The position numbers and the translations under genes were made by a program. Shown here piece after piece: positions 18,009 to 56,576 of a stretch of 64,000 nucleotides of DNA. The stretch is from assembly GCA_030533085.1 (NCBI GenBank), contig JAUNJZ010000002.1, forward strand, positions 1 to 64,000. The letters run 5' to 3'. The notes below the pieces were generated by a model, which saw only the letters and a list, made by a program, of their open reading frames with translations, was not told the DNA's origin and searched no databases. Positions within the stretch are counted from its first letter, which is position 1. Every line of letters starts with the position of its first letter. The DNA comes from Synergistaceae bacterium. Its GTDB lineage: Bacteria; Synergistota; Synergistia; Synergistales; Synergistaceae.

Positions 18009-21000
18009 TTGTATAAAAACTTAGGGAAAGTGTATCTATTTTTAAGCGCGCTGATATCGCTTGCTTTTATCCTCTGCGCCGCTCCGGCGGTCAACGCGGC
18101 AGACCAGGGCGTCCGTTTCAGAACCTCGCTGCATGCGCTTGACGGCGGGAACCTAAGCAGGGATATATACGAGTACGACGGAAACACACGCACAGCCTGT
18201 ATCGAAGGCGTAAAGCGCCTTGCCTCAAATCGCCTGCAAATCTCCTTCACCACCCCTGTGGAGACGGTATCAGAATTACCTCTGAATGATGGCGAGGGTA
18301 TTAGTCAGCACGATAACGTCAAATATAACTTCTGGCTCACCGACGGCACGGGAACTAATATCAACAACAACGTTAGCGGCGTCGAGCTGCCGGCCTACCA
18401 AATTCCCGCCTCCGGCGACCAGCGGCGCAGCTACGCCCTCCTCGACCTGACATTCGACAGCGAAGTGCCCGCGGGGGCGCGTCTTAACTTCGCCGCGGTG
18501 CCGGGCCTCTTGCCCGGCAGCCTTACGCGGGCTTCCTTCGCGATTCCGGGGCAAGCCCTCGTAGACAATTTTTCGCGCGTCGTAGAGGAAGGCGTTCCTC
18601 TTCTGAGCGGACTTAACTTTTATGACGCCGTGACCAACGAACCGATCTCTTTAGTATACAGCAGTTTTGATCCGACAATAACCAACCTGGAGAACCCCAT
18701 CTCAGTGAACCAGGGGCAAAGCGTCAGCATAAAGGCGACGGCCGACGACGGCTGCGCTCTCTATTTCAACGGCTCAAGGGCGGAGAGCGGCAGCTTCACA
18801 CCCCGCCTTTCGGACGGGCAAAACATCGTCGAGCTGAAAATAGAAAAAACAGACGGAAGAAGCCTTACGTACAGAATTTACCTCTGGAGAGATGCGGCCA
18901 GCTTCGCCCTCGCCAGCCTGACGACGCGCGAATGGTCGGATACAGATAACGGCTGGCAAAGCCCTAAGACTGTAGCTATCCCGGAGGGTTACTTTCAGCT
19001 CATACTTGACGACCTTCCCCCAAACGCTAAGACAGACGGCAATTTTGCTGTAAAACCTGACGTTACCGTCAGCCAGACTGTACAAAGCGTTAAATACAGG
19101 AAGGCGAACAGCAGCGCGGCCTGGCAAAACGCTTCGTCAAGCACAAGCCCCGGGGATGGCTATTACCTCGTTTCGCTCAGCGACCCCGGCGAATATTTCA
19201 TCTCGGCTGAGATTGCCGAAAACGGCAATAATAATAAGGTCAGCTACCTCTTCTCAGTCCGCTACAACGACGTTTCCGCCGTGATGACCAAGCTCGAGCT
19301 GTGGCGTAAAAACAGCAACGGCACTCTGGGCGAAAAAATCCCCTTTGACCGTGAATTCCTCGGCGCCCCCCTTTCAGGCCTCATGCCGGGAGAATATATC
19401 TCCTACAACGTCCCCGGCCTTACCAGAAAATGCGTCGAGGACGCCATCGTTCTCCTTGCCGATACCAACAACGGCACAAATATCGAGGTTCAGGGCAGGA
19501 CATATTACTATGCCACGGACAGGAATGTTTCCATCAACAGCTGCGATTACTTCGAAATCCCTGTAAATGTGGCTTATGGCGGAAGCGAAACCGTCGAATT
19601 CCTGCTCAAAAGAGCTGTCGGCGCGTCGGTTAACGCCCAGACGAAAGTATTCCTCAACATGCAGCGCTACGAGCCGCACCTCGAAAAGCTCTCCGTACGG
19701 AATCTGAGCGACGGGGCGGAGCTGCTCTCCGGCTTCGCCGAAGGCATTGGCGACTACACCGTCGTCGTCCCGTACAGCTCCGGCAACTCGGGGCGCGTGA
19801 GCGTATCCTGGCAGGCGCTGCTCCACGAAGAATATAAACGCAGGGGTTATAGCGGCGGCAATCCTAATCTGAAGGTCTACTTGGAGTACAACGGCAACTA
19901 TCGCATAGTGGACAACGCCGCTTCCATCGAGCTGGACGTCGACCGCTTCGCCCCGAAAAAGCTTAAACTCACCGTCCACTCCGACCTATACTCCGCCAGC
20001 GGCCTCTCCCGAGAGAGCAAGCAGTACAGCCTGACGATCAAAAGCGGCTTCACCCCCGTTGAGAAAGTCTACTACGGCATCACCGGAGAGCAGCTTTCCC
20101 GCTCGAGAGACCCGGCCAACGCGAATGTCGGCTTGAACGGCCACTATGAATACACCACCGTGAACAACACTCACGCGATTCAGCTCAACTGCTTCGGCTT
20201 CGACTACGAGTCTTCCACCGGAAAGCCGATCGCCGCCGCAAGCGCGGACAAAATCGTCTATATCAAGGTTCCGTTCGCCTGGTATCCGGCGAACGCGCAC
20301 GACGTCGGCGAGCTGGTTCACGAAAACGTAAGCAATTTCTATGTGGAGTCTGTGGAATATAAAGACGGCGAAGGAACGATCACCCTTTCATACTCCAGCT
20401 TCCCCGAAATCCTGGCCGAGGGCGTGACCCCCTCCGCCTGGGACGAGATCAACAGCCCGAATTTCCTGCGCGCCAAACGGAGCGGCACAGTGCTGGGGGC
20501 CTTGGCGGCCGACTTCCTCATCCCCAGGGATCCCGACAACCACACCGCCTTCTCCATCACCACGCGCGACGAGAAGCTCCTCGACCTCTGGAGACACGCG
20601 GACAAGGCTCTGCCCTTTCTGGATCCCGCCTTCACGTACTGCGGAGGGGATTCTCCGCTTCTCATCCAGCAGGGGCAGAATATCACCGTCTCCTGCTATC
20701 CCTCCATACGCAACTACGGACAATACCTTGAGTTCCGCAAAGCCTGCCCCGGCACGCCGTGGGTAGAGGCGCTCACGCCGGGCGGCTTCCCGGCCGACTC
20801 CTATTACGGCAGCAGCAGCTGGATCTCGGAGTTCCTGCCGACCTTCCGCGACAACGTCTACAAGTCGTACTACGACTGCCCGCTCGGTTTCCCGCACGAT
20901 AGCGTCGAGTTCAAATACGACCTTGAAGCCGACCCCCGCTACGCCGCGATATCTCCTGACGACCCGTCGGAGGAAAAGCAGGCGCTGCGCGCCCTTCTGG

Positions 21001-34793: not shown

Positions 34794-36365
34794 CTATTTA
34801 CGCCTCTTCCGTATCCACGCCGCCAGCGGAATCAGAGCCGTCAGCGCGAAAGCCGCAAGACCGGCGGAGCAGCCGCCGGAGCTGCCGGAATCCTCCGAAT
34901 CGCCGCCGCCGCCATCTCCATGATAGGCGTTGTAGACGTTCAGCAGCCCATATTTTGAGTAGCCCTCACGCAGAACGTCCTCGGCTCCATACATCAGCAT
35001 CTCTTTTATCTCCGCCGCCGCTATGTCGGGATAGGCGGCGCATAGCAGCGCGGCCGCCCCGGCAACCATCGGCGTCGCCATCGAAGTGCCGCTCCAGCTG
35101 TCGTATCCGTCTCTATGACAGTTATCGCTGTCCGCGAAGCTGTAGCGCGGCGTCGTGCTCATGATATTATCCCCGGGGGCCATGATGTCCACCCAGCTGC
35201 CGCTTGAGCTGAAATTGGAGCCGGAAGCCCGCCCCAAGCCGTCCTTTTCATTGGAGGCGCCGACTGTGATCGTATTTTCAAAACGGAAACAGGCCGGATA
35301 CGGCAGCTTCCCGGCGCGACCGGAATCAGGCTTGTCTATATCCTGGCTCTCGTTTCCGGCCGCGATGCAGACGATGATCCCCGCGTCGCTCGCGAGTTTG
35401 ATCGACTGCGCGTATGGGTCGGTATTCTGATCTACCCGCGGGGACCAGCCGCCAAGGGAGATGTTCGCAGCACGAATGTTCAGCCCGTAAATTCTTTTCA
35501 GCATGACGATGTAATCAAGAGCGGCTATGACGTCGGAATCATACGCCTCGCTCGTGAATGTGCCCGGCTTTTTTTTATCTTCCATTATGGTGAATACTCC
35601 CACCGGCAGTATTTTTACCCGCCAGTTCACGCCCGCGACCCCTAGAGCGTTGTTGCCGGCCGCGCCGATTATCCCCGCGACATGGGTGCCGTGTCCGGAG
35701 ATATCTCCCCAAGAGGCGTAGTCTACCTCGTCCGTACTTGTAATTGTAATGTCGCGCGACGGAGTGCCGCTTCTTACAACCTGAGTCCTTTTAACTTTGT
35801 CGTGGAAGAAATAGCCGTATGTTCCGTCCGGCAGCAGACCGCTGATATTCGCCGCGAGATCCGGGTGGTCGTAGATTACGCCGGTATCGAGCACGGCGAC
35901 ATATACGTCGTCGGAACCGGTCGAAGCCGCTTCCCACAGCTCCGGAGCCTTTATCCTCCGAGTTCCCCACTGGCTGCTCCATAGGCTGTCGTCCGGCGTC
36001 AGCGCCTGCGCCTTTCTTTTATAATTTTTCGCAGCGCCGAGCACCTCCGGATTTTCTTTCAGCTCCGCAATCAGCTCATCAGCCGTCTTTTCCGACGACG
36101 ATATCACCGCGATCCCCCGTCCGCTTCCGGCTGTCAGCTCCGGGTAGCTGCCGCGCGACGCGGCTCCGACATTTCTGGCGATAGCCGAGGCCTTCGCGGC
36201 GGAGCTTTCTTTGGCGGCCGAGCTCATGGTCGCCGAGGTCATGTTTGAATCCCTGAAAAGCACCAGCACTTCATTCTCCGCGTGATCGGCGGCAGTCGCC
36301 GATACCGGCAGGAGAAGCGTCAGAGACAGGAATATTATCGCGCGCAGCTTCCGCGTCTTTTTCAT
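34794..36365 (-). CDS. Surface subtilisin-like protease (S8) with Synerg-CTERM tail
   Basis: Secreted serine protease, 523 residues from the preferred start (MKKTRK, with GGGAG upstream). A signal peptide (AIIFLSLTLLLPVSATAA) and a propeptide of about 110 residues precede the catalytic domain. The triad is seen as D in AVLDTGVIYDHPDL (about 157), H in GHGTHVAGIIGA (about 226) and S in SGTSMATPMVAGAA (about 426); the oxyanion Asn is in IAAGNES. The end is SSGGCSAGLAAFALTALIP and RKRRK. It probably sits at the cell surface and may trim proteins there, possibly those with the same tail. The promoter lies in 36366-36570, where no other gene is seen. Confidence 0.92.
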   Translation of the reverse strand: MKKTRKLRAIIFLSLTLLLPVSATAADHAENEVLVLFRDSNMTSATMSSAAKESSAAKASAIARNVGAASRGSYPELTAGSGRGIAVISSSEKTADELIAELKENPEVLGAAKNYKRKAQALTPDDSLWSSQWGTRRIKAPELWEAASTGSDDVYVAVLDTGVIYDHPDLAANISGLLPDGTYGYFFHDKVKRTQVVRSGTPSRDITITSTDEVDYASWGDISGHGTHVAGIIGAAGNNALGVAGVNWRVKILPVGVFTIMEDKKKPGTFTSEAYDSDVIAALDYIVMLKRIYGLNIRAANISLGGWSPRVDQNTDPYAQSIKLASDAGIIVCIAAGNESQDIDKPDSGRAGKLPYPACFRFENTITVGASNEKDGLGRASGSNFSSSGSWVDIMAPGDNIMSTTPRYSFADSDNCHRDGYDSWSGTSMATPMVAGAAALLCAAYPDIAAAEIKEMLMYGAEDVLREGYSKYGLLNVYNAYHGDGGGGDSEDSGSSGGCSAGLAAFALTALIPLAAWIRKRRK

Positions 36366-36568
36366 ATGAAAACTCCCTTTCATCACATTTTCAGTCTATT
36401 AGTTATTACGCACAACAGCTCTTTGCCGGCGGCGGGAATCCGGCAAAAGCTCGTCAGCAGTATTATAGCGTAAGATGGCAGTAATGTCAGAAAATTGCCT
36501 CACAATGAAAGCCGCTGCGGATTCTGGAGGCGCTCGCCTTCGGCAATAACGTAAATATCCCGCGCTCA

Positions 36569-41358: not shown

Positions 41359-44300
41359 CTATCTTTTACCTTTAATCTTCTTTACGGCGAATGGTATCGC
41401 GCCAAGCAGAGACAGAAGCAGCCAGCCGGCATTGCATCCGCCGGAGGAATCAGAGGCGGAACTTCCTGCGACGCTGTCCGAAAGATTAAGCGCCTCGCCA
41501 AGCGTGCCGTTTCTGTTAGCGGCTGTCAGACTGGCAGTCCGCGTCACAGCCGGTCTCTGTGCCCCGCTTTCGAGAATGTTCTTGCGCAGGATGGCGAAGT
41601 CGTGAATATCTACTCTATCGCTGCTGTTAAAGTCTGCACGGTAGTCAAAATCTGATTCGCCTTTGTTCTTCAGAACTGACCTCCTCAGCAGCGAGAAGTC
41701 AAAGATATTCACTTTGTTTGCGCTAGAGCCTTCCTGATCAGCGTCTCCCCCTTTGAGGTTTTCCGCCAGCTCAACATTCCATACGCCGGAGGTCACAGCT
41801 ACATCGTGCGATTCAAGCGCCGCAAGATATCTCTCGCCTTTTATCCACAGCTGGACTCTATCTCCGTCGTTCAGAATTCCGTTTTCGACTGTGTATTCCA
41901 CTGTGCCTGAAATATCGGCGCTTGCGGCGCCGCTCCAGATAAGGGCATTCGAGGCGTCGTATATTTCAAGCGTGACCTTTTCGATATTCGCTTCCGGTTT
42001 ACCGGAGGCTCCTCCGCTCGGACGGCCTTCAAGCTTTGTCGCGAGTCTCAGCGTGACATTCTGAGCCGCGCCGGGAGTGTAGACGCGGCATGCCGCGGAG
42101 CAATTCTGTTCGTCGCTGTAAGGCGTCTGATATGTCACTGTTATGCTGGCTTCGGTTTCTTTATCCGGCATTGTCACGACGCCTCCATTGACTGTTACGT
42201 CGGGGTTGTCGCTTGACCAGCTCAGATCGTTCTTTGAGGGTTTAAGCGCCATTGACGGAACAATATTAAGGTATTCGTATAAGTCAACAGTTCCGCCCTT
42301 CGCCGCTTCAATTGCGGCAGGGACGACGCTTATCGACGTTACCGGCGGGCGCGTCACAGTCAGCGTTATATCTCCTACTGCCCCGCCGCCGTCCCGCGCG
42401 GAGGCGGTAATCGTCACATCGGCGCGCCTTGCGTCTATCAGCTTAGCCGTGACCAGACCGTTGGCGTCCACCTCGGCGGCGGAAGGATCGGAGCTTTCCC
42501 ACAAGAGGTCTCGCTCCGGCGCGTAAGATGGCGATATCTCCGCCGCAAGCTGCCTGGATTCCCCTGCAAGGATGTAATTGTCTCCGTTGGCATTTATCAG
42601 TATATTTCTGACTTTTGCGCCTATTATCGTACCGCCGTTTTTAAGCTCAACTATGCCTCCAGCGTCGTTGATACTGCCCGTAACAGCAAGCGTTCCTCCA
42701 TTGACTATAAGTGTTCCTCCCGACGCTATTCGTAAATCGTAAACAGTCCGGTCTCCGTTTATTGTCACAACCTCTCCGGCCTGAATCTCCAGATTATCTA
42801 TCGGCGGTGTGACCGTCAATCTGCAGAGCGCGCTTTTACAACCATCCTCCGTAATAACGCCTATCGTAGACATACCCGGCGATATCGCACGCATCAGCCC
42901 TGAGTCTGATACTATCGCAACAGATATATTCCCCGAGCCCCACAGCAGATTGCCATTTGTCGGATTTGGCGGGATCAGTGAAAGCATTGGCCTGAGATCG
43001 TATTCTTCCCCTTGCTTAACCGTCAGCTCCGCGGGGTCAAATACAGCTTCGGCAATCGGCGTTCTGACCATAACGGAACAATGTGCCTTATATCCACCGT
43101 CATTTGTCGCAGCTGTTATGTTCGCAAAACCATCTTTGACAGCCGTTATCTCTCCGGTATCAGAGATCGCAGCTACCGCAGGGTTATCGGATTGCCATGT
43201 AATTGTCTGATCAGTTGCCGTGGATGGGAAAGTATTTGCCGTAAGCTGATGTACGGTTCCTGGCTCAATTATAGCAGCACTCCTGTCAAGAGCCACACCG
43301 TCAACCAGCGTTGTTACATTGACTTTACAGGAATCAGTATATTTACCGTCTTGAGTTGTAACGGTGATATTAGCCGTCCCATTCGCTTTCGGCGTAATAT
43401 CCCCGGCAGAAGATACAGCTGCAACCGCAGGAGCGTCTGATGTCCACAGCAGAGCCTGATTACTGGCATTGGCGGGCGTAATCTCAGCCGTCAGCCGCGC
43501 TTCTTCCCCAACGACCAGATTCATGTCGTCTCTATCAAGAACCACTCCGGCTGCCGGAACGACCCCCGTTTCACTGACGGTCACTGTACAGGAAGAATAA
43601 ATACCTGTACAGTTTCCATATATATCATAATATGGCAGTATGGCGTAAATCGTCGCGGTGCCGCTGCTAACACCGGTAACCTTTCCTCCCGGCGCAGCAA
43701 AGACTTTAGAGATGATATTCCATAGATCGCCGTCATCATCAGATGTCTCGATTGCCTCCCCGCCAAGGGTTATTCTTGCGACGTTATCGTCTGTCGATAC
43801 CCAGAAAAGAGGTTTTTTTGTTATGTTAGACACAATTTCCTTAAAATTTTTGGCATAGGAAGAGCTGCTGAACGCCGCGTCAAGCTGCACGCTGGCGCCA
43901 GGTTTTAAGCTGACGCTCTTGTGATCCAGAACTATCAGGTCTTTTGTGGATAGTGTTCTCCAAGACCCGCTGGAGTAATACATGTTTATGGAATCCTGCA
44001 GCGGCGCTCCCTGAACTTTGCACGCTGCCGTACGTTTATTACTTCCCTGTTTTACGGTAAGGGTTATTGTCGCCTCTCCATACGCATTCATCCTTACAAC
44101 ACCGGAATCAGAGACCGTGGCAACAGCCTCATTGCTGGAGGAGAACGAGACTCTGGTATCTGCGGCAGACTCAGGAGAAAGGCTCCATTCAAGCTGTGCC
44201 TCTGTACCGACACGCATCACTTTTGTCGCCGAGCCGCTGATAGACACACTTTTCAGTGTAAACGGCACATTTTCTATCGCTGTTACGGTGATTTTGCAGC

Positions 44301-45924
44301 TTGCCGTTTTTGTAATATCTCCGTCCGTCACGGCGCTGATTGTCGCGGTTCCAACTCCGGATGCCAGGAATACCGCTTTATTTCCCTTTGTATTTTTCAG
44401 AGAGATTATGCTCTCATCACTTGACCGCCAACTCACAGAATCATACGCTGCGTTTTCGGGCAATACAGCAGCCATTAGCTCCACTGTCGTATTATCCGTC
44501 ATCGTCAGGGCGTTTTTATCGAGGGTTATCCCTGAAACAGGCGTGCTGACGGTAATAGCGCACGCAGCTGTATGTTCGCCTGACTCGGACATGACCGTGA
44601 TTTCCGCTTCTCCATTCCCTACAGCGGTAACAAGACCAGATGACGAAACAGTGGCGGCGTCCGGATTATTTGAACTCCACCATAGTTTTTTATCGTCCGC
44701 ATCCGGTGGTGAAAGAGTGACATTCAGCTGTCTTGTCGAGCCAACATTCATAGATGCCGACGAAATATCGAGGTCTGCTGTCCTCAGCCGCAGCGGCTCA
44801 ACAATGGCGATACATGCTGCCGTGTACCCCCCATCTTCTGTCGTGACCGTGATATCCGCGACTCCTGGAGATACAGCGGTAATAACACCGGCAGGCGAAA
44901 CCGCAGCTACGGAGCTATTGCCTGACAGGTACGTTACTTTTTTATTTGTCGCGTTATCAGGTTTAATCACGACAGTCAGTTCCTTATCCTCTCCCTGGCT
45001 CAACATTACGACCGACTCTCCAAAATTAACGCCGGATACAACCCAAGGTAAAATGGTACAAGCGCACGTCGCTGTGAACCCTCCGTCCCTGGTAATTGCT
45101 GTTATTTCCGCAGATCCCAAAGATAGCGCCCTAACAACGCCCTCATCAGAAACGGAAGCGACAGCCGGGTTGCTCGACTTCCAGCTCACATCTTTGTACG
45201 CGGCGCTGTCGGGAAAGACTGAAGCTTTCAGCTGTTCCGTCTGCCCCAGTTTCAGAGAGAAAGATATCTTATTGATTTCAACACCAGTCACTTCATGCGG
45301 AACAACCTTTACCTCGCAGACCGCAGTGTACCCTCCGTCCTCCGTACTGACGGTAACGCGCGTCGTTCCAGCGCCGACAGCCTCAACAAGCCCCGTATCG
45401 CTAACACGCGCTACCGATGGATTATCAGAGGCCCATGTTACATTTTTATTTTCGGCATACTCCGGCGTTATCGTCGCGGTCAGGCGCGTCTGTTCCCCTT
45501 CAAGCATTTCAAGTGCCGCCTTGTCCAGTTTTACTCCTGTAACAGCCAACGAACCAATGACCCGGATATTGCATTTTGCTTCAAGATCTGACACCTGCGT
45601 ACTTCTTGCTATGACGACCGCATCACCAGGAGCTATCGCCGTCACAGTGAAGGTCGGATAATTAGTCGATGTACGTGAGGTGCTGGAACTTTTGAGATAC
45701 TTTGAGCTGTAAGTCCATTCGACGCTGTTATAACCTGTATCTATTGGGAAAACATAGCCTTGGATAGTCAAAGATTCACCAATGTTTAGTGTGGTATTTT
45801 CCGGCTCAAGGCTTATTTTGTTAGGTAAATATGGTATCAATACCGCCGCCCATGCCGCGCAGACCGTGACAAACAGTACAGCTATAGCGATAACCAACAG
45901 ATATAATTTACGATTTCTCATCAA
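41359..45924 (-). CDS. Ig-repeat (BIG2) surface protein with dockerin-like module and Synerg-CTERM
   Basis: Secreted protein of 1,521 residues. A signal anchor (LYLLVIAIAVLFVTVCAAWA) is followed by about 13 BIG2-type Ig repeats (for example VTGVKLDKAALEMLEGEQ, ending VTVSTEDGGYTAVCEVKV). A domain near 1,270-1,390 (KLEGRPSGG, then VTLEIYDASNALIWSG) is shared with the protein at 49904. A dockerin-like pair of EF-hand-type repeats follows: GDADQEGSSANKVNIFDFSL and ADFNSSDRVDIHDFAILRKN. The end is SSGGCNAGWLLLSLLGAIP with KKIKGKR. It may be an adhesin displayed at the surface and docked to a cohesin-bearing partner. Confidence 0.87.
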   Translation of the reverse strand: MMRNRKLYLLVIAIAVLFVTVCAAWAAVLIPYLPNKISLEPENTTLNIGESLTIQGYVFPIDTGYNSVEWTYSSKYLKSSSTSRTSTNYPTFTVTAIAPGDAVVIARSTQVSDLEAKCNIRVIGSLAVTGVKLDKAALEMLEGEQTRLTATITPEYAENKNVTWASDNPSVARVSDTGLVEAVGAGTTRVTVSTEDGGYTAVCEVKVVPHEVTGVEINKISFSLKLGQTEQLKASVFPDSAAYKDVSWKSSNPAVASVSDEGVVRALSLGSAEITAITRDGGFTATCACTILPWVVSGVNFGESVVMLSQGEDKELTVVIKPDNATNKKVTYLSGNSSVAAVSPAGVITAVSPGVADITVTTEDGGYTAACIAIVEPLRLRTADLDISSASMNVGSTRQLNVTLSPPDADDKKLWWSSNNPDAATVSSSGLVTAVGNGEAEITVMSESGEHTAACAITVSTPVSGITLDKNALTMTDNTTVELMAAVLPENAAYDSVSWRSSDESIISLKNTKGNKAVFLASGVGTATISAVTDGDITKTASCKITVTAIENVPFTLKSVSISGSATKVMRVGTEAQLEWSLSPESAADTRVSFSSSNEAVATVSDSGVVRMNAYGEATITLTVKQGSNKRTAACKVQGAPLQDSINMYYSSGSWRTLSTKDLIVLDHKSVSLKPGASVQLDAAFSSSSYAKNFKEIVSNITKKPLFWVSTDDNVARITLGGEAIETSDDDGDLWNIISKVFAAPGGKVTGVSSGTATIYAILPYYDIYGNCTGIYSSCTVTVSETGVVPAAGVVLDRDDMNLVVGEEARLTAEITPANASNQALLWTSDAPAVAAVSSAGDITPKANGTANITVTTQDGKYTDSCKVNVTTLVDGVALDRSAAIIEPGTVHQLTANTFPSTATDQTITWQSDNPAVAAISDTGEITAVKDGFANITAATNDGGYKAHCSVMVRTPIAEAVFDPAELTVKQGEEYDLRPMLSLIPPNPTNGNLLWGSGNISVAIVSDSGLMRAISPGMSTIGVITEDGCKSALCRLTVTPPIDNLEIQAGEVVTINGDRTVYDLRIASGGTLIVNGGTLAVTGSINDAGGIVELKNGGTIIGAKVRNILINANGDNYILAGESRQLAAEISPSYAPERDLLWESSDPSAAEVDANGLVTAKLIDARRADVTITASARDGGGAVGDITLTVTRPPVTSISVVPAAIEAAKGGTVDLYEYLNIVPSMALKPSKNDLSWSSDNPDVTVNGGVVTMPDKETEASITVTYQTPYSDEQNCSAACRVYTPGAAQNVTLRLATKLEGRPSGGASGKPEANIEKVTLEIYDASNALIWSGAASADISGTVEYTVENGILNDGDRVQLWIKGERYLAALESHDVAVTSGVWNVELAENLKGGDADQEGSSANKVNIFDFSLLRRSVLKNKGESDFDYRADFNSSDRVDIHDFAILRKNILESGAQRPAVTRTASLTAANRNGTLGEALNLSDSVAGSSASDSSGGCNAGWLLLSLLGAIPFAVKKIKGKR

Positions 45925-45975
45925 TATCCCCTCACTTTGGGCGGCTTTGCATTATACGAAACGGCAGCAATGCCA

Positions 45976-46209
45976 TTAATACCTCTTTATGAAAATCATT
46001 GGCACGACAGCCAACAGAAACAGAAGCAGCCAACCGGCATTGCATCCGCCGGAGGAATCAGAGGCGGAACTTCCGGCGAAGCCGTCCGAAAGATCAAGCG
46101 CTTCGCCAAGCGTGCCGTTTCTGTTAGCGGCTGTCAGACTGGCAGTCCGCGTCACAGCCGGTCTCTGCGCTCCGCTTTCGAGAATGTTCTTGCGCAGAAT
46201 GGCGAAATT
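45976..46209 (-). pseudogene. Duplicated 3' end of a dockerin/Synerg-CTERM gene
   Basis: Fragment without a start, nearly identical to 41409-41609 (the end of the preceding protein's gene). In the minus frame it reads LRKNILESGAQRPAVTRTA, then a Ser/Gly linker, SSGGCNAGWLLLFLLAVVP, and ends MIFIKRY. The hydrophobic helix and basic end differ from the full gene, so it is a separate, complete tail and not a simple copy. Homology starts abruptly near 46209. It is either a remnant of a lost paralogue or a silent cassette. Confidence 0.88.
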
Positions 46210-46244
46210 GATTAAGTACCAAGTCTTTCAACCATTAACAACCT

Positions 46245-46278
46245 AATGAACTGGGAGGATATATCCTCCCAGTTCATT
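46245..46278. terminator. Perfect 34-bp palindrome, probable terminator
   Basis: AATGAACTGGGAGGATA is followed immediately by its exact reverse complement, with no loop bases. It lies 12 bases past the stop of the cohesin protein gene on the minus strand. Confidence 0.75.
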
Positions 46279-46290
46279 ACATCTTATTTC

Positions 46291-49134
46291 TTACTTTTTC
46301 CTGCGCAGCACCATCGGCACAAATGCCAGCAGCGCAAGCGCTGCGAGGCCGGCGCTGCATCCGCCGGAACTGCCGTTGTCCGGCGTCGCGGATTTCGTTT
46401 CGATAATCGCAGTTGGATCCGCTACGGTTCCGGCCGTCCTGGCAAGGTCAAAAGCTCCGCCGTCCTTGATGAAGAGCGAGAGAATATACTCTGTCCCCTC
46501 GTTAATGGCTCCGGTGTGTATCGTGCCATCAATATTCTGTATCGTGCAGCATTCGTCCATGTTGGCCGTTATCGCGGAGGCGTACTTGAAGAGCCTGCCG
46601 CTGCCCTCACCGAGTATCTTGATAACCTTCACATCCTCCGGCCTTGCGGCTTTCAGCTCTGCGCCGAGCAGCTGAAAGCTGATCATTGCTGTTTTTCCGC
46701 TCTCAACGTTGTCAGCGGTGAAGACCGGCAGTGGAAGAACCTTATCCGCCGTGATATTTTCCAGCGTGTTGATATTGGCCACTGCGCCGACGACGCTGCC
46801 GGGCTTCACAGCCACCAATCCATTATTGATCTCAAGCATATCCGTCGTGATGGATTCCAGCTTTGCCGCCGCTGCCGTCACGTCATTCTCTGTTTCGCCC
46901 TTTACTGGTTTTACCTCCGCCTTTACGTCGTCCGGAGTGTCCGCCGGCAGCTTGGGTTCAATCGGGCTGGTATGCGCGGCGTATGTCGCCGTCAGAGCCT
47001 CGGCTCCTCCGGCAGCGACTGTTACCTGCATATCGGCGGGGGTATTGTAACCGTTAACCGCTGAAAATTTCACAGTGTGATCGCCTACCGCCACAGTGGC
47101 TGTCTGCCCCGACTGGTAGATGTTTGTATCGCCGTCAACATGCCATCTGGCGTCGGCGGCTACAGCGTCAGGCTGTATAGTAACCGTTATCGTGCCTGTC
47201 TCGATTTTTTTGTATTCTCCAGTCTTATCGACCGAAGTCCCCGCAGGGATGGTAACGGAGATATCAGCCGGTTTCGTGTAGCCGGACACGTCGTTAAAGG
47301 CTATCTTGTGTTCTCCAGGATTAATGGAGAGCGTATACCCGGACTGATACTGCTTTGTGGAGTCCGTCGTCAGATACCACCTCGCGTCGCCGGAGACTTC
47401 GTCAGGAGTGATAGTGACCGTCAGCGTTCCACATTCCGCGTAAATCGGCGACAGTTCATGCGTATTCCTTCCAGGTTCCGCGCTTTCCGATATTGTCACC
47501 GTTTCGTCCTTAGGTGTGGCATAGCCATCAATCGGAATGAAAGAGACCGTGTACGTCCCCGCATCAAGATCCTCGGCAGATGTGCCGCTGCCGCGCCATT
47601 CGTTGGGCTCGTCGATATTGAGCCTCCACCGTCCTGTTATGGGCGTCAGATTCACGGTAATTTTGCCTTTTTCAACGTATTCGACAGTTTCATCTTTGGG
47701 CTTTTCAGCAAGAACCGTCACATTCATTGGAGATGGCGTAAAGAAGTGCGCAACTTCCTTGAAAGATATTGAATATGTTCCTGCATCCACTAATATTCCC
47801 GATCCTGAATCATATTCATTATTATTAAGGATCCATTTTCCTCCGTTAGCGATAACAATATCAGGAGAGAGTGTCACGGTAAGCCTGCTCTGCTCTATGT
47901 ATTTTGCGTTCACAGGAGTATCTTCCGCATCTTTCACTGTTACTTCCCGCGTTTCAGGCGTAGTATAGCCGACGATTTTCGTGAAATGAACGCTGTGGCT
48001 GCCTCCCTGCAGCGAAAGACGGTGTCCAGACTCATAGAGATCGGCGGAGTTCCCGTCCACGTACCACCTGGCGTCATTCGCAGCAATTTCTTCAGGTGTA
48101 ATGGTGACAGTAACAGTTCCCCACGCACCGTAATTTACCGAAACGTCCCATGCGTTATCTGGTATAGCAGGATCTGTCTCAGAGACAGTGACAACTTTGG
48201 GTGACGGCGTCGTGTATCCTGTGATATCTTGGTAAACCGCGGTGTACGTCCCCGCATCAAGGTTTGTATATTCGTAGCCGCTGTCACGCCATACGCTTCC
48301 GCCGTCTGTCGGCTCCAGCCGCCACTTGGCCAGCGCCGGAGTGAGCGTGGCTTTCACGCTGCCTTTTTTGACGTACGTAACGGAAGCGCTGTCGTTCTTG
48401 TTTACTGTTATCGTATAAGTTTTGTCTTCAGGAGTGAAGTATCCGTCAGCATTTTCAAATTTGACGGTTTTCATCACACTCTCGCCGGTGGGAAATTTCT
48501 CCGTGTGCGTTCCCCCTGAAGCGATCCAGTTAGCGCCCTCGTCAACGCTCCACCTGGCGGTACCAGGAGTCAGATTCAGCGTGAGCGAGCCGGAGGGGGC
48601 GTCCACGATGGTTATTGTTGCGTTCTGAATATCAGCGATATATGTTTGGGACGGATTCCCCATAAGCTTAAATTGTGAATTTGTAGCAAGTGTAATATTC
48701 GTCTCTCCAAACGCGGCATCAGGTTTTACAATAAATGTGACTATGAGAGTCGATAGATCTTTACCTTGTTCTACAGTCTCACCAATCTCTGACGTTGTAA
48801 TTATCTTTATTTCATTATTTTCCAGCACCGCTAAGTCGCCCACTCTGCGAAAATCTTTAAACGGGCTGTCCGTCCCAAGTTCCATTTTCGAATATTCGAG
48901 AACACTGTCGTCAAATGTGATTCTGGACGCTATGGAATGAAGCATACCAGCATCTTCCGTCGGCAGATTGTTGAAATTCGTTTTAAACTCAACGGTAACT
49001 GTCTTGCCTCTCATCACAGATGAAGCGGATGGAGCAAGTTTAAAAGTCGCCGAGGATTCCGCGGCCGTGGCAGATGCCGAAAAGATCGTACAAAGCAGCG
49101 CCAGTACCATAAATAAGCTATACAGTCTCTTCAT
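46291..49134 (-). CDS. Cohesin-like surface protein with beta-repeats and Synerg-CTERM
   Basis: Secreted protein, 947 residues from the preferred start (MKRLYSLFMVL, AAAGGGG upstream). A signal peptide precedes a cohesin-like domain (about 25-180): TFKLAPSASSVMRGKTVTVE, RITFDDSVLEYSKMELG and TLIVTFIVKPDAAFGETNI. About eight repeats of a PEGA-like type follow, each with a KWRL/RWYVD core and a GYTTP turn (for example DAGTYTAVYQDITGYTTPSP). A helical region precedes the SSGGCSAGLAALALLAFVP tail with RRKK. The cohesin could bind dockerin modules of the neighbouring proteins and anchor them at the surface. Confidence 0.87.
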   Translation of the reverse strand: MKRLYSLFMVLALLCTIFSASATAAESSATFKLAPSASSVMRGKTVTVEFKTNFNNLPTEDAGMLHSIASRITFDDSVLEYSKMELGTDSPFKDFRRVGDLAVLENNEIKIITTSEIGETVEQGKDLSTLIVTFIVKPDAAFGETNITLATNSQFKLMGNPSQTYIADIQNATITIVDAPSGSLTLNLTPGTARWSVDEGANWIASGGTHTEKFPTGESVMKTVKFENADGYFTPEDKTYTITVNKNDSASVTYVKKGSVKATLTPALAKWRLEPTDGGSVWRDSGYEYTNLDAGTYTAVYQDITGYTTPSPKVVTVSETDPAIPDNAWDVSVNYGAWGTVTVTITPEEIAANDARWYVDGNSADLYESGHRLSLQGGSHSVHFTKIVGYTTPETREVTVKDAEDTPVNAKYIEQSRLTVTLSPDIVIANGGKWILNNNEYDSGSGILVDAGTYSISFKEVAHFFTPSPMNVTVLAEKPKDETVEYVEKGKITVNLTPITGRWRLNIDEPNEWRGSGTSAEDLDAGTYTVSFIPIDGYATPKDETVTISESAEPGRNTHELSPIYAECGTLTVTITPDEVSGDARWYLTTDSTKQYQSGYTLSINPGEHKIAFNDVSGYTKPADISVTIPAGTSVDKTGEYKKIETGTITVTIQPDAVAADARWHVDGDTNIYQSGQTATVAVGDHTVKFSAVNGYNTPADMQVTVAAGGAEALTATYAAHTSPIEPKLPADTPDDVKAEVKPVKGETENDVTAAAAKLESITTDMLEINNGLVAVKPGSVVGAVANINTLENITADKVLPLPVFTADNVESGKTAMISFQLLGAELKAARPEDVKVIKILGEGSGRLFKYASAITANMDECCTIQNIDGTIHTGAINEGTEYILSLFIKDGGAFDLARTAGTVADPTAIIETKSATPDNGSSGGCSAGLAALALLAFVPMVLRRKK

Positions 49135-49248
49135 TGAAACATAACCCCTTTCGTGCTTTACTTTTTGCCAATTGTTTTTTAAGCGCGCCTTTCTTTTTTT
49201 GCCTGTTTTGGGCATCATCTCCCTATAAAAGCTTCCTGCTTTTGTTTT

Positions 49249-49800
49249 TTAATTCACCAGCAGGCTAACGGGAGTGATTATCGCGAAGTTTAAGCCCCCT
49301 GACTCCGTGACAATGTATGTACCGTTAGCGGAGCGGTTTTTATCCGTCGTAAAACCAATCCTCACCTTGCCTGCTTTCAGTGCCGCTTCTTTTACCCTGA
49401 ACTGCTGTTCTGCAAAGAGTACGCCGCCTTTGTCCGCGAATGAGACCGCCGAATCTCCGATAGAAGCCGCGGTTATCTCTGTCAGCCCTTTCACCGCGTC
49501 ACTGCGCGCCGCAAGCGGCTTGCCGAAGAATTCCTCACGCACAACCGGATCTCCCACAGGCTCAAGCAGTTCTGCGTCCCAAACCAGCGTCGCCGCAATA
49601 CCGGTTAATTTCTGATTCGCAGGCGCCTCAACCATGATTTCAGCTGTGATCACACTCCCCGCAGCGGCAGACGCTGGCGCAGAAAGGCGGATTGCCGGAG
49701 TATTGGCAGTCCCGGCAAAGACAGACTGTGCAAATATCAGCACGATTATCGCCAGGAGAAGAATTATATTCCTGATATTTTTAAGTGAATTCAGTGTCAT
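49249..49800 (-). CDS. Secreted single cohesin-domain protein
   Basis: Protein of 183 residues from the preferred start (MTLNSLKN, AAAGGAAG upstream). The signal peptide is NIILLLAIIVLIFAQSVFAG. The rest is one cohesin-like fold (PAIRLSAPASAAAGSVITAE, GIAATLVWDAELLEPVGDP, then LFAEQQFRVKEAAL). There is no Synerg-CTERM tail and no membrane anchor, so it should be released or held only by binding partners. It lies between the cohesin surface protein and the giant dockerin gene. A free cohesin could link or cap dockerin-bearing proteins. Confidence 0.82.
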   Translation of the reverse strand: MTLNSLKNIRNIILLLAIIVLIFAQSVFAGTANTPAIRLSAPASAAAGSVITAEIMVEAPANQKLTGIAATLVWDAELLEPVGDPVVREEFFGKPLAARSDAVKGLTEITAASIGDSAVSFADKGGVLFAEQQFRVKEAALKAGKVRIGFTTDKNRSANGTYIVTESGGLNFAIITPVSLLVN

Positions 49801-49861
49801 GATGATCTTCCTTTCATTATTATAAAGTTTTATCAAAGACTGGCTATTCTTTGCTTATGCC

Positions 49862-49899
49862 ATGTTGGCTGTATGGGGTAGACCCCATACAGCCAACAT
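49862..49899. terminator. 18-bp-arm hairpin after the giant dockerin gene
   Basis: ATGTTGGCTGTATGGGGT and its exact complement are separated by two bases. On the minus strand it directly follows the stop at 49904. Confidence 0.8.
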
Positions 49900-49903
49900 A
49901 ATT

Positions 49904-52891
49904 TTATTTTCTTCTGCGTGCGGCGATGAATGGAAGCGCCAACAGCAGGATCAGCGCGCCCGCGCCGGTTGAACAGCCGCCGGAAGCATCGCCGTTCGCG
50001 GTGCTTCTTTGTTCGGTCGATGTTTCAGCGTTCAGTTCCTCAAGCGTTTTTTTCAGATTTCCGGCGCTGTTGGCAGCAAGCAGAAGAGCCGTCCGCGCAC
50101 CCACCGGTTTTTGCGCTCCGCTATCAAGGATATTCCGGCGCAGAATCACAAAATCGTCAAGGTCTACCGTATCACTGCTATCAAAGTCTGCTCGGTAGTC
50201 AAAATCCGGATCGCCTTTGCTGTCGAGTATGGAACTCCGTAGGATGAGGAAGTCGTCAAGAGCCACTTCGTTGCTGCCATCGGCGTCTCCCCCCTTGAGG
50301 TTTTCCGTCATCGTCACATTCCAGATACCATCCACAATATGGACATCAGCCGACAGCAGCACCGCAAGGCAGCGTTCGCCTTTGACCCAGAGCTGTACTC
50401 TGTCACCTTCATTGACGTATTCCGGCGCAATGTCGAATGAGACTATTCCATCCGCGTCTGTCGAAGCAACTCCGCCCCAGAGTCTGACGTTATCAGAGTC
50501 ATATATCTCAACTTCCATCTTTTCGATGTTGCTGCCCGTGCCGCCGCCGCTCTCTCTGCCCTCCAGTCTGGTATGAATGGACAGCGTGGTCTTCAATGCC
50601 TTCAGACGAAGCACTGCCACCGGATCGATGACCACTCCGTTCGCTGCGCCGTCAAGATCAAATTCACCGCCGTCTTTTATGAAAGTAACCAGCGTGTAGC
50701 TGTCGCCGGAGACAATTTCTCCTGTGTGGATGTCGCCGCCTTTCATAAGAGTGACGCACTTATCCTTGAACTGGCTCTTGTCTTTTACCACAGTAAAGAG
50801 CTGGCCGGCCCCAGTCGGGAAGGTCTTGAGCACTTTTATCTCATCTATGCTCTTAGCGCTGCCAAATACTTCGCCGGTCACCTCATATCCAATGGCCGCC
50901 ACTTCGCCGTTATTATTAAGGTCCTCGCTGACTATAGCGAAGGAAACGATATCAACCTGCTCGATCGATTTGTCACGCGAGATAGCATTCGCAACAGACT
51001 GTTTCACTGTTGACTCATTCAATCCGAGCTTGTCCTCGCCGGTGCTCATGAGATCCCAGTAACCAATACCAATAGCCTCCGAGACTTCCTGTTGTTTTGT
51101 GCTATCAGGATATTTCGCGGCTATGGGGCTGATGGCCAGGCCGTCCGCCGTCTCACTCGGAAGGCCTGACGGCGCCCTGCCGGATGGGGCGGAGGTCTCC
51201 GTTTTTTCGCCGCCGCCGGCTATAACAAGATCTACATTCATAGCGGCGCCAGACGGCCAGCCAGAGCTGTCGGTATAGTTAGCCGCCGCGATGCCGCTAG
51301 AATCGTATCCAAGCGCAGTTATCACGCCATTTTCAATGCTGGCAAGGGGCGGATCCATTAGAGGAAAGAAGTGCCACTCTATTTCTCCCCTTTCCGGCTT
51401 GCGCGCCAGCTCAGGCGACACTTGCAGCAGTTCATAGATGTCTGCGCTCTGTCCGTAGCGGAGAGTGCTGCTTCCCGGAATGAATTTCATCTCTGTTATT
51501 GGAGGAAGCACAACTTCCATCGTGATGCTTCCCTTCACGCCGTCGTCATGCACCGAAGCCGCCGTGATAACGACCGTTCCAGCCTTCAGCGCCGCGGTGA
51601 TAAGTCCGTTTGAGTCCACGGATGCAAGCTCTGTGTTGCTGCTGGACCATGTGACGTCACCGTCGGCGGCTGCCGGGTAAACATCTGCGTAAAGCTGCCG
51701 CGAAGCACCGACGAGAATGTAGTTGTCGCCATTAGCAGTAACGTCGATAGAGACAGGCTTTATCACTTCCTGTCTGATGGAACCGCCGCCAGTTACCGTT
51801 CCTGAACCTGTATTCGTCCCTTTGACGTAAAGTTCTACGCCAGCCGGCAGTTCAAGCGTCCCGTTGTTTACGAGGTTATTAACAGAGGCGCTCTGTGTGA
51901 TGGATATTCTGCTGCCGGCTTCTACTTCCAGATCAGTCTCATAGTTCGGGCGCACAGTGCCGCCGAAGGTGAAGTTGGAATTGTTTTTGACAAGCAATTT
52001 CTTCACGCCTCTGACGTTACCGTTAAATTCGCCGGTTTTGCCGTCGAATATCACTGAGGTCAGCCCTTCTACCTTTGTTATATCTTCGTCCGAAGCGCCG
52101 TAGACAAAGCCGTCGAAGGCCGTGTCGTCCGAACGGCGCGGAGCTGATCCTTTGAAAGTTACTGTAACATCGCCCTTTACGGTATTTGACGGGAATTTCC
52201 ATCCGCTGAAATCTTCCGGGAAAACCAGACCGCCGCCATATATGTTGCCGTCTATAACGGCATTTCCGCCGACTGTAATGTCAACGTCGCCGTTTATTAC
52301 GGAAGAGGCCGTTCCGTTGAGCTGAGACGCTCCGCTATCATAATTCGTACCTATGATGGAACCGCCGTAGACGTTTCTCACGCTGGAGTTTCCCTGAATA
52401 TTTATCGAGACGCCCCCCGCGTCGGTATAGTTTACATTCGCATCAGATGTATCGTTGCCAAGCCAAATTCTTGAACCGCCTATGAGCCGGCGGATTATAC
52501 CGCTGTTGCCGTTCACATCGATACGCGTCGAGCCAACGGAACCCGCAGCGTCATACGTCAGCCGGCTGCCCTCCGGCATATATCCTCCAACCGCGAGGCA
52601 GCCGCCTGCCGCGATATCACGATCGTTGAAATAGCCGCCGTCAACAACAACGCGAACCTCTCCGCCGGCCGATATGACGTTGCGCCCCTTATTCGTTCCG
52701 ATAGTAAGTGAAGAATACTCGCTATAAGCAGTGTAATCGTTTACGTCGATGGCTCCGAGCGCGTTGATGTCTTTGGAAAGAACCCCGCCTTTTATGTATA
52801 CGTCAACGCCGTTATTGATATGTATCGTTTTCGCCGCCTTGCTGTACGAACCGTTAATGTAACCGCCGCCGTTTATCCTGTAGACGCTGCC
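49904..52891 (-). pseudogene. C-terminal part of a giant dockerin surface protein (after the frameshift)
   Basis: These 995 codons continue the gene at 52873-55677 in the -1 frame. From 52891 the frame reads GSVYRINGGGYINGSYSKAA and runs on without a stop. It contains more glycine-rich repeat sequence, a BIG2-like segment and the shared domain with RLEGRESGGG and EVEIYDSDN. A dockerin-like pair follows (GDADGSNEVALDDFLILRSS and ADFDSSDTVDLDDFVILRRN). The tail is DASGGCSTGAGALILLLALP with RRRK. On its own it has no signal peptide; the first internal ATG (52579) cuts through a repeat domain, so separate translation is unlikely to be useful. Confidence 0.8.
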
Positions 52892-55677
52892 TTTTCGAGC
52901 GTCACACTCACGCTGTCTGTTATAACGGATGTATCATCAGCGTCGTCGCCATTCCCCATGTCGTTGATAAGTGCGCCGCCGCTCAGCATCCGCACCATTC
53001 CTTCGCCGGAATTATTGACCAGGGCGGAGGAACTTCCGTATACGATGCTTTGTTCCTCTGCCGGCGAGGAGCCGAATACCTCAACGTTGCTTCCTGATAT
53101 GGAACTTACATTCAGCTCAACGGAAGAATATCCGGAGACGCCGCTGTATCTGCCGCCGCCAAAGTAAGATCCGCTTCCGCCTATGCCGCCCTCCACAACA
53201 AGCCGTGTGTCTCCGGTAGTATTGGCGCGCCCGCCGCCGTGGAACCAGCCGCCGCTCCATTCGCTCTGGCGGCCGGAGAATATCAGCTTCAGCGACGAGC
53301 CGTCAGAGGGTTCATTGCGGTCGCTGCCGCCCATAATACTACCCCAGATGTAATTGTAAGTACCAGTCAGAAGATTTCCGTCACAGAGGCCCTCTTTTAC
53401 CTTATAGTACTCCACTCCCGAGAGCAATATTCTGGTGCTTGATGAAGAGGCGGTCGCAGCCCAGTAGTTGCCTCTTACGCTGCCGCTGATAACATAAGAG
53501 TCCAGAAGGTTTCCGTTCGAAACGTCTCCTGAATAGATCTCCGTATCGAAGATGATACGCCTGCCTTTAAAGCCAAAGCGCTCCATAAGCATACCAGGAA
53601 CAGCCGTTTTAAGTTTAGCACGGCCGGAGGAATCGCCTTTCACGTTCAGCTGCATGTTCTCATTATTGACAATGATACAGGCCTGGTCGCCGCTGGCTAT
53701 AAAGTCGCCTGAGACGGTCATGCGCCTATAATCCCCCAGTAAAGAACCAGCGTTAAGCGTGCCCGCCAGTATCACTTTGTTGCATTCGATGTTATTTACA
53801 AAGTTGAAGACCGTTCCGGCTGGTATTTCCAGCACGTCGTATACCTTCGGTTCGTAACCGCCAACCTCGACTTCCCCTTTACGAGTGCCATTGACATAAA
53901 GGTCAAACTTTACCGTTCCATTACCGCTGTTGCTAACTATATAAGAGTTGAAATTTTCCGGTACGTCGAGCCGTACCGTGCCGTTGACATCGCCTGTTAT
54001 GTCCAGATGGCAATCGCTGCTGGTGATAACTATTCTCGCCTCATCAGACTTCTTGTTGATGTCGCCAAGCCGTACAAATCCGCCTTCGATGCTTAAAGTA
54101 CCGGCCAGATCAAGGCTGGATACGCTGATGCTGCCCCAGCTCTGGTCATAACCTACCCTTAAAGTACTCCCGGAAGCGATGGAAAGCTTTGCATTGTTGT
54201 ACAGACTGGTAACGGAAACGTCGCTCGCATCGCCTATGGTTATCTCGTCAAAGCCGCTGATATACGGATAATAAATATCGGACGGAGCGAAGGTCGCTTT
54301 CACGTTGGAAAATACGAGATACGATTTCCCCAACACGGAACGCCAGGCTTCGTTGTAATATCCTTGGCTTTGACCATAAAAGGATATATGAGAAACGGGA
54401 GAGCCTGTGACATTTTTCACCGTAATTACAGCGTCTCCTGAGACTACGGGATACTTTGTGGATCCATATTCCTCTTCTCCTCCCGCATTTACGCCATATC
54501 TGATCGCGCTCAGCCCTGCATCGCCGTTAATCGTGATATCAACTGCACCGACACTGTTTTCAAATGTAGCGTTGTCACCACCGCCGCCGCCATAAATATA
54601 GTCAACTGCTCCGCTGTTTATGGTTATCCGTGCCGTCCCTTTCACGACGCTTTTCACTGTGCCCTCAGACAGCCCATTGGTATATCCGCCCCCATAAATG
54701 GAACAGAAATTATCGTTAAGCATGCCGTTTTCCAACACTGCGCCGTTAAGCGTGATATTGCTGTCTCCCTCTATTTCGGAAATGGAAACGCGGCCGCTGC
54801 CCCCAGAAACATCGCCGCCGCCGTAGACGCCTCCATAAACGCCCCCAATAATCCCTCCATTCAGGAATATATTGCTCTCACCAATTGAAATGCGGCCGCT
54901 GTCCAGTATCTGTCCGCCGCCATAAATGGCATCGGCTATTTTCTGCCCGTCAGATCCGTCGCCATTAACATTGATAATACTTTTGCCAGTTATTTGTATC
55001 TTTGAATCGTTGTGTGGGTAGACGTCACCGCTCATATAACTCCCGTCAATAAGTCCCCCGCCGTATATGATAACTATACCAGAACCCGATGACGGCGCCG
55101 TAAGGTCGTCAATGTTGATCGTGCTGTCGCCATTGACAGTCGTTCTCTTAGCACCCAGAGAATTCCATCTCCAGTCGTCCGTCCCAATCGAGGAAACGCC
55201 TGTTATATCTAAATAAGAACTGAGGTTTTCTGCCAGTCTTAACTTCTTAATGTTAAGGAGTACGTTGCCGGTAATGCTTCCCTCTGCGGAGCCTCCATTT
55301 ATGCGCGAAGCGTAATGATCATCATCATAGTTGTATTCAACCGCGCCGCTGACATTAATTTCCGTCTCTACGCTGCCTTTTACGTCGCCGCTCTCCGCGC
55401 CGCCGTAGTATGTCAGCCCACTAATCCTGTCCGACTCGCCGTTCGCGGTAAACGAAACCTTATAGTCGCCTTCCATTCCATCAGCTCCCGGCGCTCCGTA
55501 AACGGTGACATTACTGACGTCGCCGCTTATTACCGGGCTGATCCCATAGTAGGTCTGACCGCTTTCGACTACCGCCGCGGGCCTGACAGTGGTATCGGCA
55601 CGGCTGAAGAGTGCGCCGAAGACAATAAGCATAAAAATCATGCATAACAAAATGCTGTCACGATATTTTAACTTCAC
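52873..55677 (-). CDS. N-terminal part of a giant dockerin surface protein (before the frameshift)
   Basis: Starts with GTG at 55677 (GGAGGAA upstream) and a signal peptide (ILLCMIFMLIVFGALFSRADT). The remainder is Gly/Asn/Ser-rich, beta-helix-like repeat sequence (for example IYGGGYTNGLSEGTVKSVVK and GGSAEGSITGNVLLNIKKL), as in autotransporter-like adhesins. As it stands the frame ends at 52873, five codons after the last sensible residues (SVTLEK), and lacks dockerin and tail. One extra A in the run at 52892-52895, or a -1 shift on GAA AAG G, would join it to the next part as a protein of about 1,924 residues. Without that the product would be secreted but not anchored. Confidence 0.82.
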   Translation of the reverse strand: MKLKYRDSILLCMIFMLIVFGALFSRADTTVRPAAVVESGQTYYGISPVISGDVSNVTVYGAPGADGMEGDYKVSFTANGESDRISGLTYYGGAESGDVKGSVETEINVSGAVEYNYDDDHYASRINGGSAEGSITGNVLLNIKKLRLAENLSSYLDITGVSSIGTDDWRWNSLGAKRTTVNGDSTINIDDLTAPSSGSGIVIIYGGGLIDGSYMSGDVYPHNDSKIQITGKSIINVNGDGSDGQKIADAIYGGGQILDSGRISIGESNIFLNGGIIGGVYGGVYGGGDVSGGSGRVSISEIEGDSNITLNGAVLENGMLNDNFCSIYGGGYTNGLSEGTVKSVVKGTARITINSGAVDYIYGGGGGDNATFENSVGAVDITINGDAGLSAIRYGVNAGGEEEYGSTKYPVVSGDAVITVKNVTGSPVSHISFYGQSQGYYNEAWRSVLGKSYLVFSNVKATFAPSDIYYPYISGFDEITIGDASDVSVTSLYNNAKLSIASGSTLRVGYDQSWGSISVSSLDLAGTLSIEGGFVRLGDINKKSDEARIVITSSDCHLDITGDVNGTVRLDVPENFNSYIVSNSGNGTVKFDLYVNGTRKGEVEVGGYEPKVYDVLEIPAGTVFNFVNNIECNKVILAGTLNAGSLLGDYRRMTVSGDFIASGDQACIIVNNENMQLNVKGDSSGRAKLKTAVPGMLMERFGFKGRRIIFDTEIYSGDVSNGNLLDSYVISGSVRGNYWAATASSSSTRILLSGVEYYKVKEGLCDGNLLTGTYNYIWGSIMGGSDRNEPSDGSSLKLIFSGRQSEWSGGWFHGGGRANTTGDTRLVVEGGIGGSGSYFGGGRYSGVSGYSSVELNVSSISGSNVEVFGSSPAEEQSIVYGSSSALVNNSGEGMVRMLSGGALINDMGNGDDADDTSVITDSVSVTLEKAASTG

Positions 55678-56007: not shown

Positions 56008-56091
56008 TCTTCTTCTTTTCTTGCTGTGATAAGTGTAAATAATCGTATGAAAAAATTATTTACGTGAAATCATTCTACATCAATAGCATAC

Positions 56092-56149
56092 TTTTGTCTA
56101 CTACAGGATTATACATTTTGTCTATAAAAATCCAACGCCATCCTGTAGT
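56092..56149 (+). promoter_or_regulatory. Putative operator upstream of the XRE regulator
   Basis: Two direct copies of TTTTGTCTA (56092-56100 and 56116-56124) and a 10-bp inverted repeat, ACTACAGGAT (56100-56109) with ATCCTGTAGT (56140-56149). This cluster lies just before the XRE start and may be its own binding site. The rest of 55678-56174 holds the riboswitch leader and no other gene. Confidence 0.5.
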
Positions 56150-56174
56150 CTTTCAAAAATGGCAGGTGAAACGA

Positions 56175-56576
56175 ATGGCAATTGGCGACAGGTTGAAGAT
56201 AAGCAGGGAGCGGATGGGATGGAGTCAGTATCGCATGGAGGAAGAATCGGGCTATTCCCGCAATTCGATCATTAACTGGGAGACCGGCGTAAGGGTGCCG
56301 AGGGCGGATATTCTGGCAGAGCTGGCAAAGCTGCTCAACACCACCGTAGCCTATCTCGCGGGCGAGAGCGACGAGCATTCCCCAGCCGAAGCGCCGGCGG
56401 AAAAGCGCGATGAAGGCGATACCGCTGAAAAAAATTCCCCTCTGTTGAATCTTGTTTTTGTCTTTGAGGCGTTGAAGCGCAGTTCGAGCAAAATGAGCGC
56501 GGAAGAAAAGAACGCCGTCACGTCGCTTCTAAAAGCATGTCTGCATGAGGTCGAAAAGAATAATTTTTCTGCTTAA
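56175..56576 (+). CDS. XRE-family (Cro/CI-like) transcriptional regulator
   Basis: DNA-binding regulator, 133 residues from the preferred start (MAIGDRLK). The helix-turn-helix (RLKISRERMGWSQYRMEEES, then GYSRNSIINWETGVRVP) covers residues 6-45. A conserved NTTVAYLAGESDE segment follows, then a charged linker and a helical C-terminus (about 90-133). A longer frame to 56064 covers the repeats of the putative operator and is unlikely. It is divergent from the c-di-GMP-riboswitch surface gene, so it could control that gene as well as itself. Confidence 0.85.
   Translation: MAIGDRLKISRERMGWSQYRMEEESGYSRNSIINWETGVRVPRADILAELAKLLNTTVAYLAGESDEHSPAEAPAEKRDEGDTAEKNSPLLNLVFVFEALKRSSSKMSAEEKNAVTSLLKACLHEVEKNNFSA

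Follow-up and report, generated by a model that had tools for sequence, protein, structure and literature searches.

The minus strand of a 64,000-nucleotide stretch of Synergistota DNA (the whole stretch analysed, hereafter the window) carries a row of genes, running from 55677 to 41359, in which dockerin-like ends and cohesin-like domains, the two partners known from cellulosomes, were noticed side by side. The question raised by this locus is whether these modules are genuine and, if they are, which kind of assembly they could form. In the order of transcription, the cluster encodes P5, P4, P3, P2 and P1, with the following features:

41359-45924, minus: P1, 1521 aa; signal peptide (by eye), 11 Big_2, X module plus dockerin, sorting tail
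41380-41448, minus: Synerg-CTERM-like tail of P1, under the curated cut-off
41557-42057, minus: X module plus dockerin of P1, two F-hands; the dockerin part matches solved dockerins
About 45982-46206, minus: remnant end of another dockerin gene (second F-hand onwards, linker, CTERM tail)
46015-46206, minus: 192-nt direct repeat, 95% identical to 41407-41598 inside P1
46244-46279: perfect 16-bp hairpin after P2, candidate terminator
46291-49134, minus: P2, 947 aa; signal peptide (by eye), N-terminal cohesin, seven PEGA-like repeats, domain in common with P4, Synerg-CTERM
46294-46371, minus: Synerg-CTERM tail of P2
46990-48597, minus: stalk of P2, seven repeats, each with a GYxTP-like motif
48598-49056, minus: cohesin module of P2 (external cohesin profile, AlphaFold model)
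49249-49800, minus: P3; signal peptide (by eye) and a single cohesin, without anchor
49252-49704, minus: cohesin module of P3 (Pfam, external cohesin profile, AlphaFold model)
49862-49899: perfect 17-bp hairpin after P4, between P4 and P3
49904-52579, minus: P4, C-terminal frame of a split gene; Big_2, domain in common with P2, X module plus dockerin, Synerg-CTERM
49907-49984, minus: Synerg-CTERM tail of P4
50111-50590, minus: X module plus dockerin of P4
52873-52900, minus: frameshift site between P5 and P4
52873-55677, minus: P5, N-terminal frame of the split gene; signal peptide (by eye), glycine-rich repeats

Genes and modules of the cluster

The initial annotation described four genes, three of which (41359-45924, 46291-49134 and 49249-49800) were confirmed, the reading frames of P1, P2 and P3 being open across their full length. 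The fourth, 49904-55677, is instead composed of two frames (52873-55677 and 49904-52579), between which the frame moves by one base near 52890, within CTCGAAAAGGCAGCG. The site is an AAAAGG run, where either an error of sequencing or a genuine break may account for the shift. A signal peptide, judged by eye, is found at the start of P1, P2, P3 and P5, and a family search with P5 gave no convincing match. The repeats attributed to these proteins were correct in part: Big_2 was found in P1 and P4, and PEGA, unmatched in P2, was matched in its orthologue from a second genome (G139, described below), while the beta-helix-like repeats were not confirmed. The domain that P2 and P4 have in common is 29% identical between them. 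The GC content of the cluster is 0.51-0.54, compared with 0.57-0.62 in the measured neighbours, so that a recent acquisition is possible. An XRE-type regulator gene (56064-56576, plus strand) diverges from the cluster, and a P-type cation ATPase, a candidate calcium pump, is encoded about 7 kb downstream (31754-34261, minus strand).

By profile matches and, for P4, through its relatives, P1 and P4 end in dockerins, as had been proposed. In particular, P1 scores 23.3 bits against the Pfam dockerin profile (PF00404), above the cut-off of 22.9; P4, with a weak 15.2 bits in the genome scan, is homologous to P1, its X-dockerin end being 51-52% identical to the C-terminal region of that protein, and the G139 dockerin scores 32.8 bits. 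Both calcium loops of the F-hand type are present, at the sequence level, in the P1, P4 and G139 dockerins, the first loop of P1 being altered by a four-residue insertion. The two F-hands are near copies of each other in P4 and most clearly so in the G139 protein, and in type I dockerins near-identical F-hands go with two binding modes. A profile of the three X-dockerins matches solved dockerins (5nrm, E=3.6e-6; 2y3n, 5.5e-6; 1ohz, 4.8e-5), with matches confined to the dockerin half; for the X module, no solved relative, solved X modules included, was found by sequence search.

Taking sequence profiles and predicted structures together, P2 and P3 carry cohesins, in agreement with the first proposal. 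Against the Pfam cohesin profile (PF00963), P3 stays just under the cut-off (E=1.3e-4, 22.7 bits; cut-off 24.1) and P2 gives no match; the G139 cohesin orthologues are above the same cut-off (46.5 and 35.5 bits), with E=5.6e-12 for the orthologue of P2. Furthermore, a cohesin profile from other phyla, built without P2 and P3, picks these two among nine proteins, and P1, P4 and P5 fall below its inclusion threshold. The jelly-roll fold of cohesins is found in the AlphaFold models of both modules, whose best PDB matches are cohesins. For P3 (pLDDT 86.5), Foldseek matches are cohesins at ranks 1-34, with TM-scores to the query of 0.74 (2vo8) and 0.79 (5nrm_A); for P2 (pLDDT 81.3), they are cohesins at ranks 1-36, with 0.66 for 4ums. 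The alignments given to the models held known cohesin relatives, and this fold test is thus not fully independent and possibly biased. Both cohesins are remote, with 10-24% identity to the other alignment rows, and a sequence search of the PDB with two cohesin profiles returned nothing useful.

As to the sorting tails, the initial statement that three proteins are tailed and one is free holds for P2 and P4, which are above the NCBI cut-off for Synerg-CTERM (TIGR04564), and for P3, which has no tail. P1 remains under the cut-off (13 bits when proteins were scanned, 19.9 bits when the genome was), even though its SSGGC-hydrophobic-basic layout fits. The whole genome encodes 25 Synerg-CTERM tails above cut-off, together with a single Rce1-like protein and a pair of secretins, of which at least one possibly belongs to type II secretion. 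Elsewhere in the window, a subtilase bears a Synerg-CTERM tail (34794-36386, minus strand), and a secreted-looking protein of 1549 aa (18009-22658, plus strand), with no match in Pfam or NCBIfam, has a CTERM-like tail (GGSGGGGGCRTAG...LLRKRKGL). Our literature search found no paper naming Synerg-CTERM, and the cluster offers a natural context for studying this tail.

At about 45982-46206 there is a fifth dockerin end, truncated but tailed, which the initial annotation does not list. It contains the outer of two 192-nt repeat copies (41407-41598 and 46015-46206) that bracket P1, and this copy is the terminal remnant of a third, now lost dockerin gene that had a tail of its own. The repeat pair is a possible site of excision or exchange, and, if dockerin ends recombine with each other, adhesin bodies could be replaced or lost.

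In the source genome (2.63 Mb, 95% complete), profile scans located all detected dockerins and cohesins in this one cluster, with dockerins detectable in P1 and P4 only and no cohesin found beyond P2 and P3. Thus, no enzyme of this genome is a detectable dockerin cargo, and the absence of glycoside hydrolases from the cluster, pointed out from the beginning, was borne out.

Occurrence in Synergistota and in other phyla

Among 188 Synergistota genomes, the dockerin family is present in two and the cohesin family in six, and both dockerin-bearing genomes have cohesins in the same cluster (Fisher p=8.5e-4), a distribution that makes chance unlikely. The X-dockerin, P3-type and P2-type profiles each match the same two genomes, and no further genome of the 188 contains the cluster. 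The proposed survey for this linkage turned up a second genus: G139, of another genus in the same family, has three diverged genes of this kind, arranged as P3, P2, P1, with proteins 33-42% identical to those of the source cluster. Its gCohB is P3-like (37% identity) and cohesin-only; gCohA is P2-like, with cohesin, PEGA, CBM_X2 and CTERM; gDoc contains Big_2, GLUG, X-dockerin and CTERM. Both tailed G139 proteins are above the Synerg-CTERM cut-off, and the tail follows the dockerin in all three Synergistota dockerin proteins. One unrelated low-GC gene separates gCohA from gDoc. An XRE-type regulator diverges from the G139 cluster as well (locus L011, 14015-14689, plus strand); the two regulators are of different subtypes, a peptidase S24 domain being present in the G139 one only.

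A cohesin match with no detected dockerin occurs in four Synergistota genomes, under the Pfam cut-off in two of them. In G017 (locus L012, 5651-7804, minus strand), and also in G018, the cohesin-like domain is the N-terminus of an NhaC-type antiporter (by eye), and no dockerin was detected there. The matches of G167, in or near outer-membrane biogenesis genes (BamA-like frame), and of G086, weak and partial, were taken as chance.

In a wider scan, which took one genome from each of 84,980 species, 39 loci with related dockerins were found, mostly in Chloroflexota and also in Bacteroidota, Caldisericota and others; some of their dockerin proteins are peptidases. Cohesins are present in 21 of the 23 genomes reached via these dockerins. 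Three loci of the same phylum (L025, L026 and L030) show 31-33% identity across nearly the whole X-dockerin dyad. A separate cohesin gene lies directly behind the X-dockerin gene in 11 of the 39 loci (L032-L034, L036, L040, L041, L048-L050, L054 and L055), three of which are from close Chloroploca relatives; P3, about 100 bases behind P4, has the same arrangement. In L034, L040, L041, L032, L042, L050 and L055 (Chloroflexota and similar), cohesin and X-dockerin are also found in a single polypeptide, and such proteins could in principle self-polymerise. The anchors recognized on the cohesin partners are LysM (L048) and a Por secretion tail (L049, L054). The dockerin is within 20 aa of the protein end in 28 of the 36 complete relatives and is followed by a cohesin in the other eight; a CTERM-type tail was found by inspection in none of the 36 relatives outside Synergistota. 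The membrane-sorting tail on dockerin proteins is the real difference between Synergistota and these relatives.

Possible roles of the cluster

The cluster probably encodes a non-cellulosomal system in which surface-anchored adhesins pair, in a calcium-dependent way, with an anchored cohesin at the tip of a stalk and with a free cohesin. This reading builds on the identity of the modules, their tails, gene linkage, conservation in two genera and the X-dockerin/cohesin pairs of other phyla, from which we infer calcium binding, physical pairing, partner choice, surface location and adhesion. Proteins would be exported via Sec, and the CTERM tail would then place them at the surface; if this tail is handled like MYXO-CTERM, its Cys could be lipidated and an Rce1-family intramembrane protease could take part. 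P2 would serve as the anchored receptor, displaying its only cohesin on top of the repeat stalk; P1 and the product of P5/P4 would be large adhesins with the X-dockerin just above their own membrane tail, and P3 would be a free secreted cohesin. Calcium-loaded dockerins would then pair with P2, P3 or both, and this pairing may hold the adhesins at the surface of one cell or join neighbouring cells. Since each cohesin protein has a single cohesin, only pairwise complexes are expected; the non-enzymatic scaffold initially envisaged is not supported, and no multi-enzyme scaffold would result. The remote cohesins, the altered first loop of P1, the P5/P4 frameshift, the cohesin genomes with no detected dockerin and the tails on both partners, with which a plain scheme of anchor and cargo becomes redundant, count against the preferred reading.

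A simpler scheme, possible if doubtful, is that the dockerin proteins dock on the P2 cohesin and that the CTERM tail only routes them for export and is then cleaved, releasing them. The usual arrangement elsewhere agrees with it, the dockerin being mostly the last module and the anchor (LysM, Por tail) being on the partner gene; however, the tail is kept after the dockerin throughout the Synergistota dockerin proteins, and P2 has the same kind of tail, so that nothing marks it as the one retained. Two anchored partners, with a distal cohesin, a membrane-proximal dockerin and one free cohesin, in a layout kept in two genera, may also suggest that the tip cohesin of P2 grips the P1 or P4 dockerin of a sister cell, while P3 competes as a cap and so adjusts aggregation. 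One article (PMC5244752) proposes roles in cell contact for the cohesins and dockerins of ANME archaea, but a membrane-proximal dockerin under a long Ig array would be awkward to reach from another cell, and we regard this version as rather unlikely. The most far-reaching reading, a calcium-switched self-recognition adhesion in which one cell type bears lock and key, each with a membrane tail, the free cohesin as soluble cap and adhesin bodies exchanged by recombination at the dockerin-tail ends (the repeat flanking P1), is speculative, and we would not expect it to hold.

The modules might instead have kept their folds only, the cohesin-like ones as stalk tips or glycan binders and the dockerin-like ones as calcium-stabilised caps, with no mutual binding. 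The remoteness of the sequences and the occurrence of a cohesin-fold domain without dockerin, as in the G017 antiporter, are in line with this view, which is nevertheless improbable, given that the two modules occur together and next to each other in Synergistota as well as in other phyla. Even harder to accept is a degrading adhesin island: the frameshift and the truncated third dockerin end could be signs of decay, but P1, P2 and P3 are fully open and a shift in an AAAAGG run could be an assembly error. The preferred, pairwise reading suggests a calcium-dependent system of attachment to surfaces or between cells, in which sticky surface repeats replace digestive enzymes. With two dockerin proteins, two cohesins and a simpler version in the second genus, the cluster makes a small, self-contained set, so that the question is testable with four modules.

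Comparison with known systems

The initial annotation regarded such a system as not described, a statement that remains valid in a restricted sense. At the level of titles and abstracts, we found no paper linking Synergistota or Synerg-CTERM with such a dockerin system; non-cellulosomal cohesins and dockerins, on the other hand, are published, and the gene pairs exist in other phyla. PMC6030884 ranks the contact between cohesin and dockerin with the strongest reported for a receptor and its ligand, and PMC5244752 recorded in 2017 that the role of such pairs outside cellulosomes was unknown.

A cellulosome was rejected, with one cohesin per protein and no dockerin-bearing enzyme detected. In fact, there is no multi-cohesin scaffoldin, P2 and P3 having one cohesin each and no other being detected in the genome, and no dockerin-bearing glycoside hydrolase, the genome scan detecting dockerins in P1 and P4 only. 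The closest cellulosomal counterparts are the anchoring scaffoldins with type II cohesins (ScaF/ScaC2 with CipB/ScaA). Clostridium thermocellum has single-cohesin surface anchoring proteins, ScaF and ScaH, and its CipB combines four modules of unknown function with an X-dockerin at the end (PMC5141474). The likeness lies in the X module fused to the dockerin and in the anchored protein with a single cohesin; here, in contrast, enzymes and a multi-cohesin scaffoldin are lacking, the anchor is a Synerg-CTERM tail, the dockerin proteins are tailed too and the X module has no sequence match to solved ones.

Regarding the tail, MYXO-CTERM/myxosortase sorting is similar in its Cys-containing motif, hydrophobic stretch and basic end, and involves lipidation at the Cys and an Rce1-family intramembrane protease (PMC11980579). 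Non-cellulosomal cohesins and dockerins occur across life (Peer et al., 2009, as cited in PMC5244752 and PMC6030884); judging from these papers, they and the ANME proteins (PMC5244752) are the same modules outside cellulose degradation, for which adhesion was proposed, whereas the system described here is a compact conserved cluster with membrane tails on both partners. The pairs of Chloroflexota and Bacteroidota share with it the X-dockerin and the cohesin gene directly behind the dockerin gene; theirs, however, include peptidases, the dockerin is C-terminal or followed by a cohesin, and an anchor is recognized on the cohesin partner only. The Synergistota locus is thus a rare, conserved non-cellulosomal cohesin–dockerin cluster, a variant, with an anchor tail on both partners, of a kind already known.
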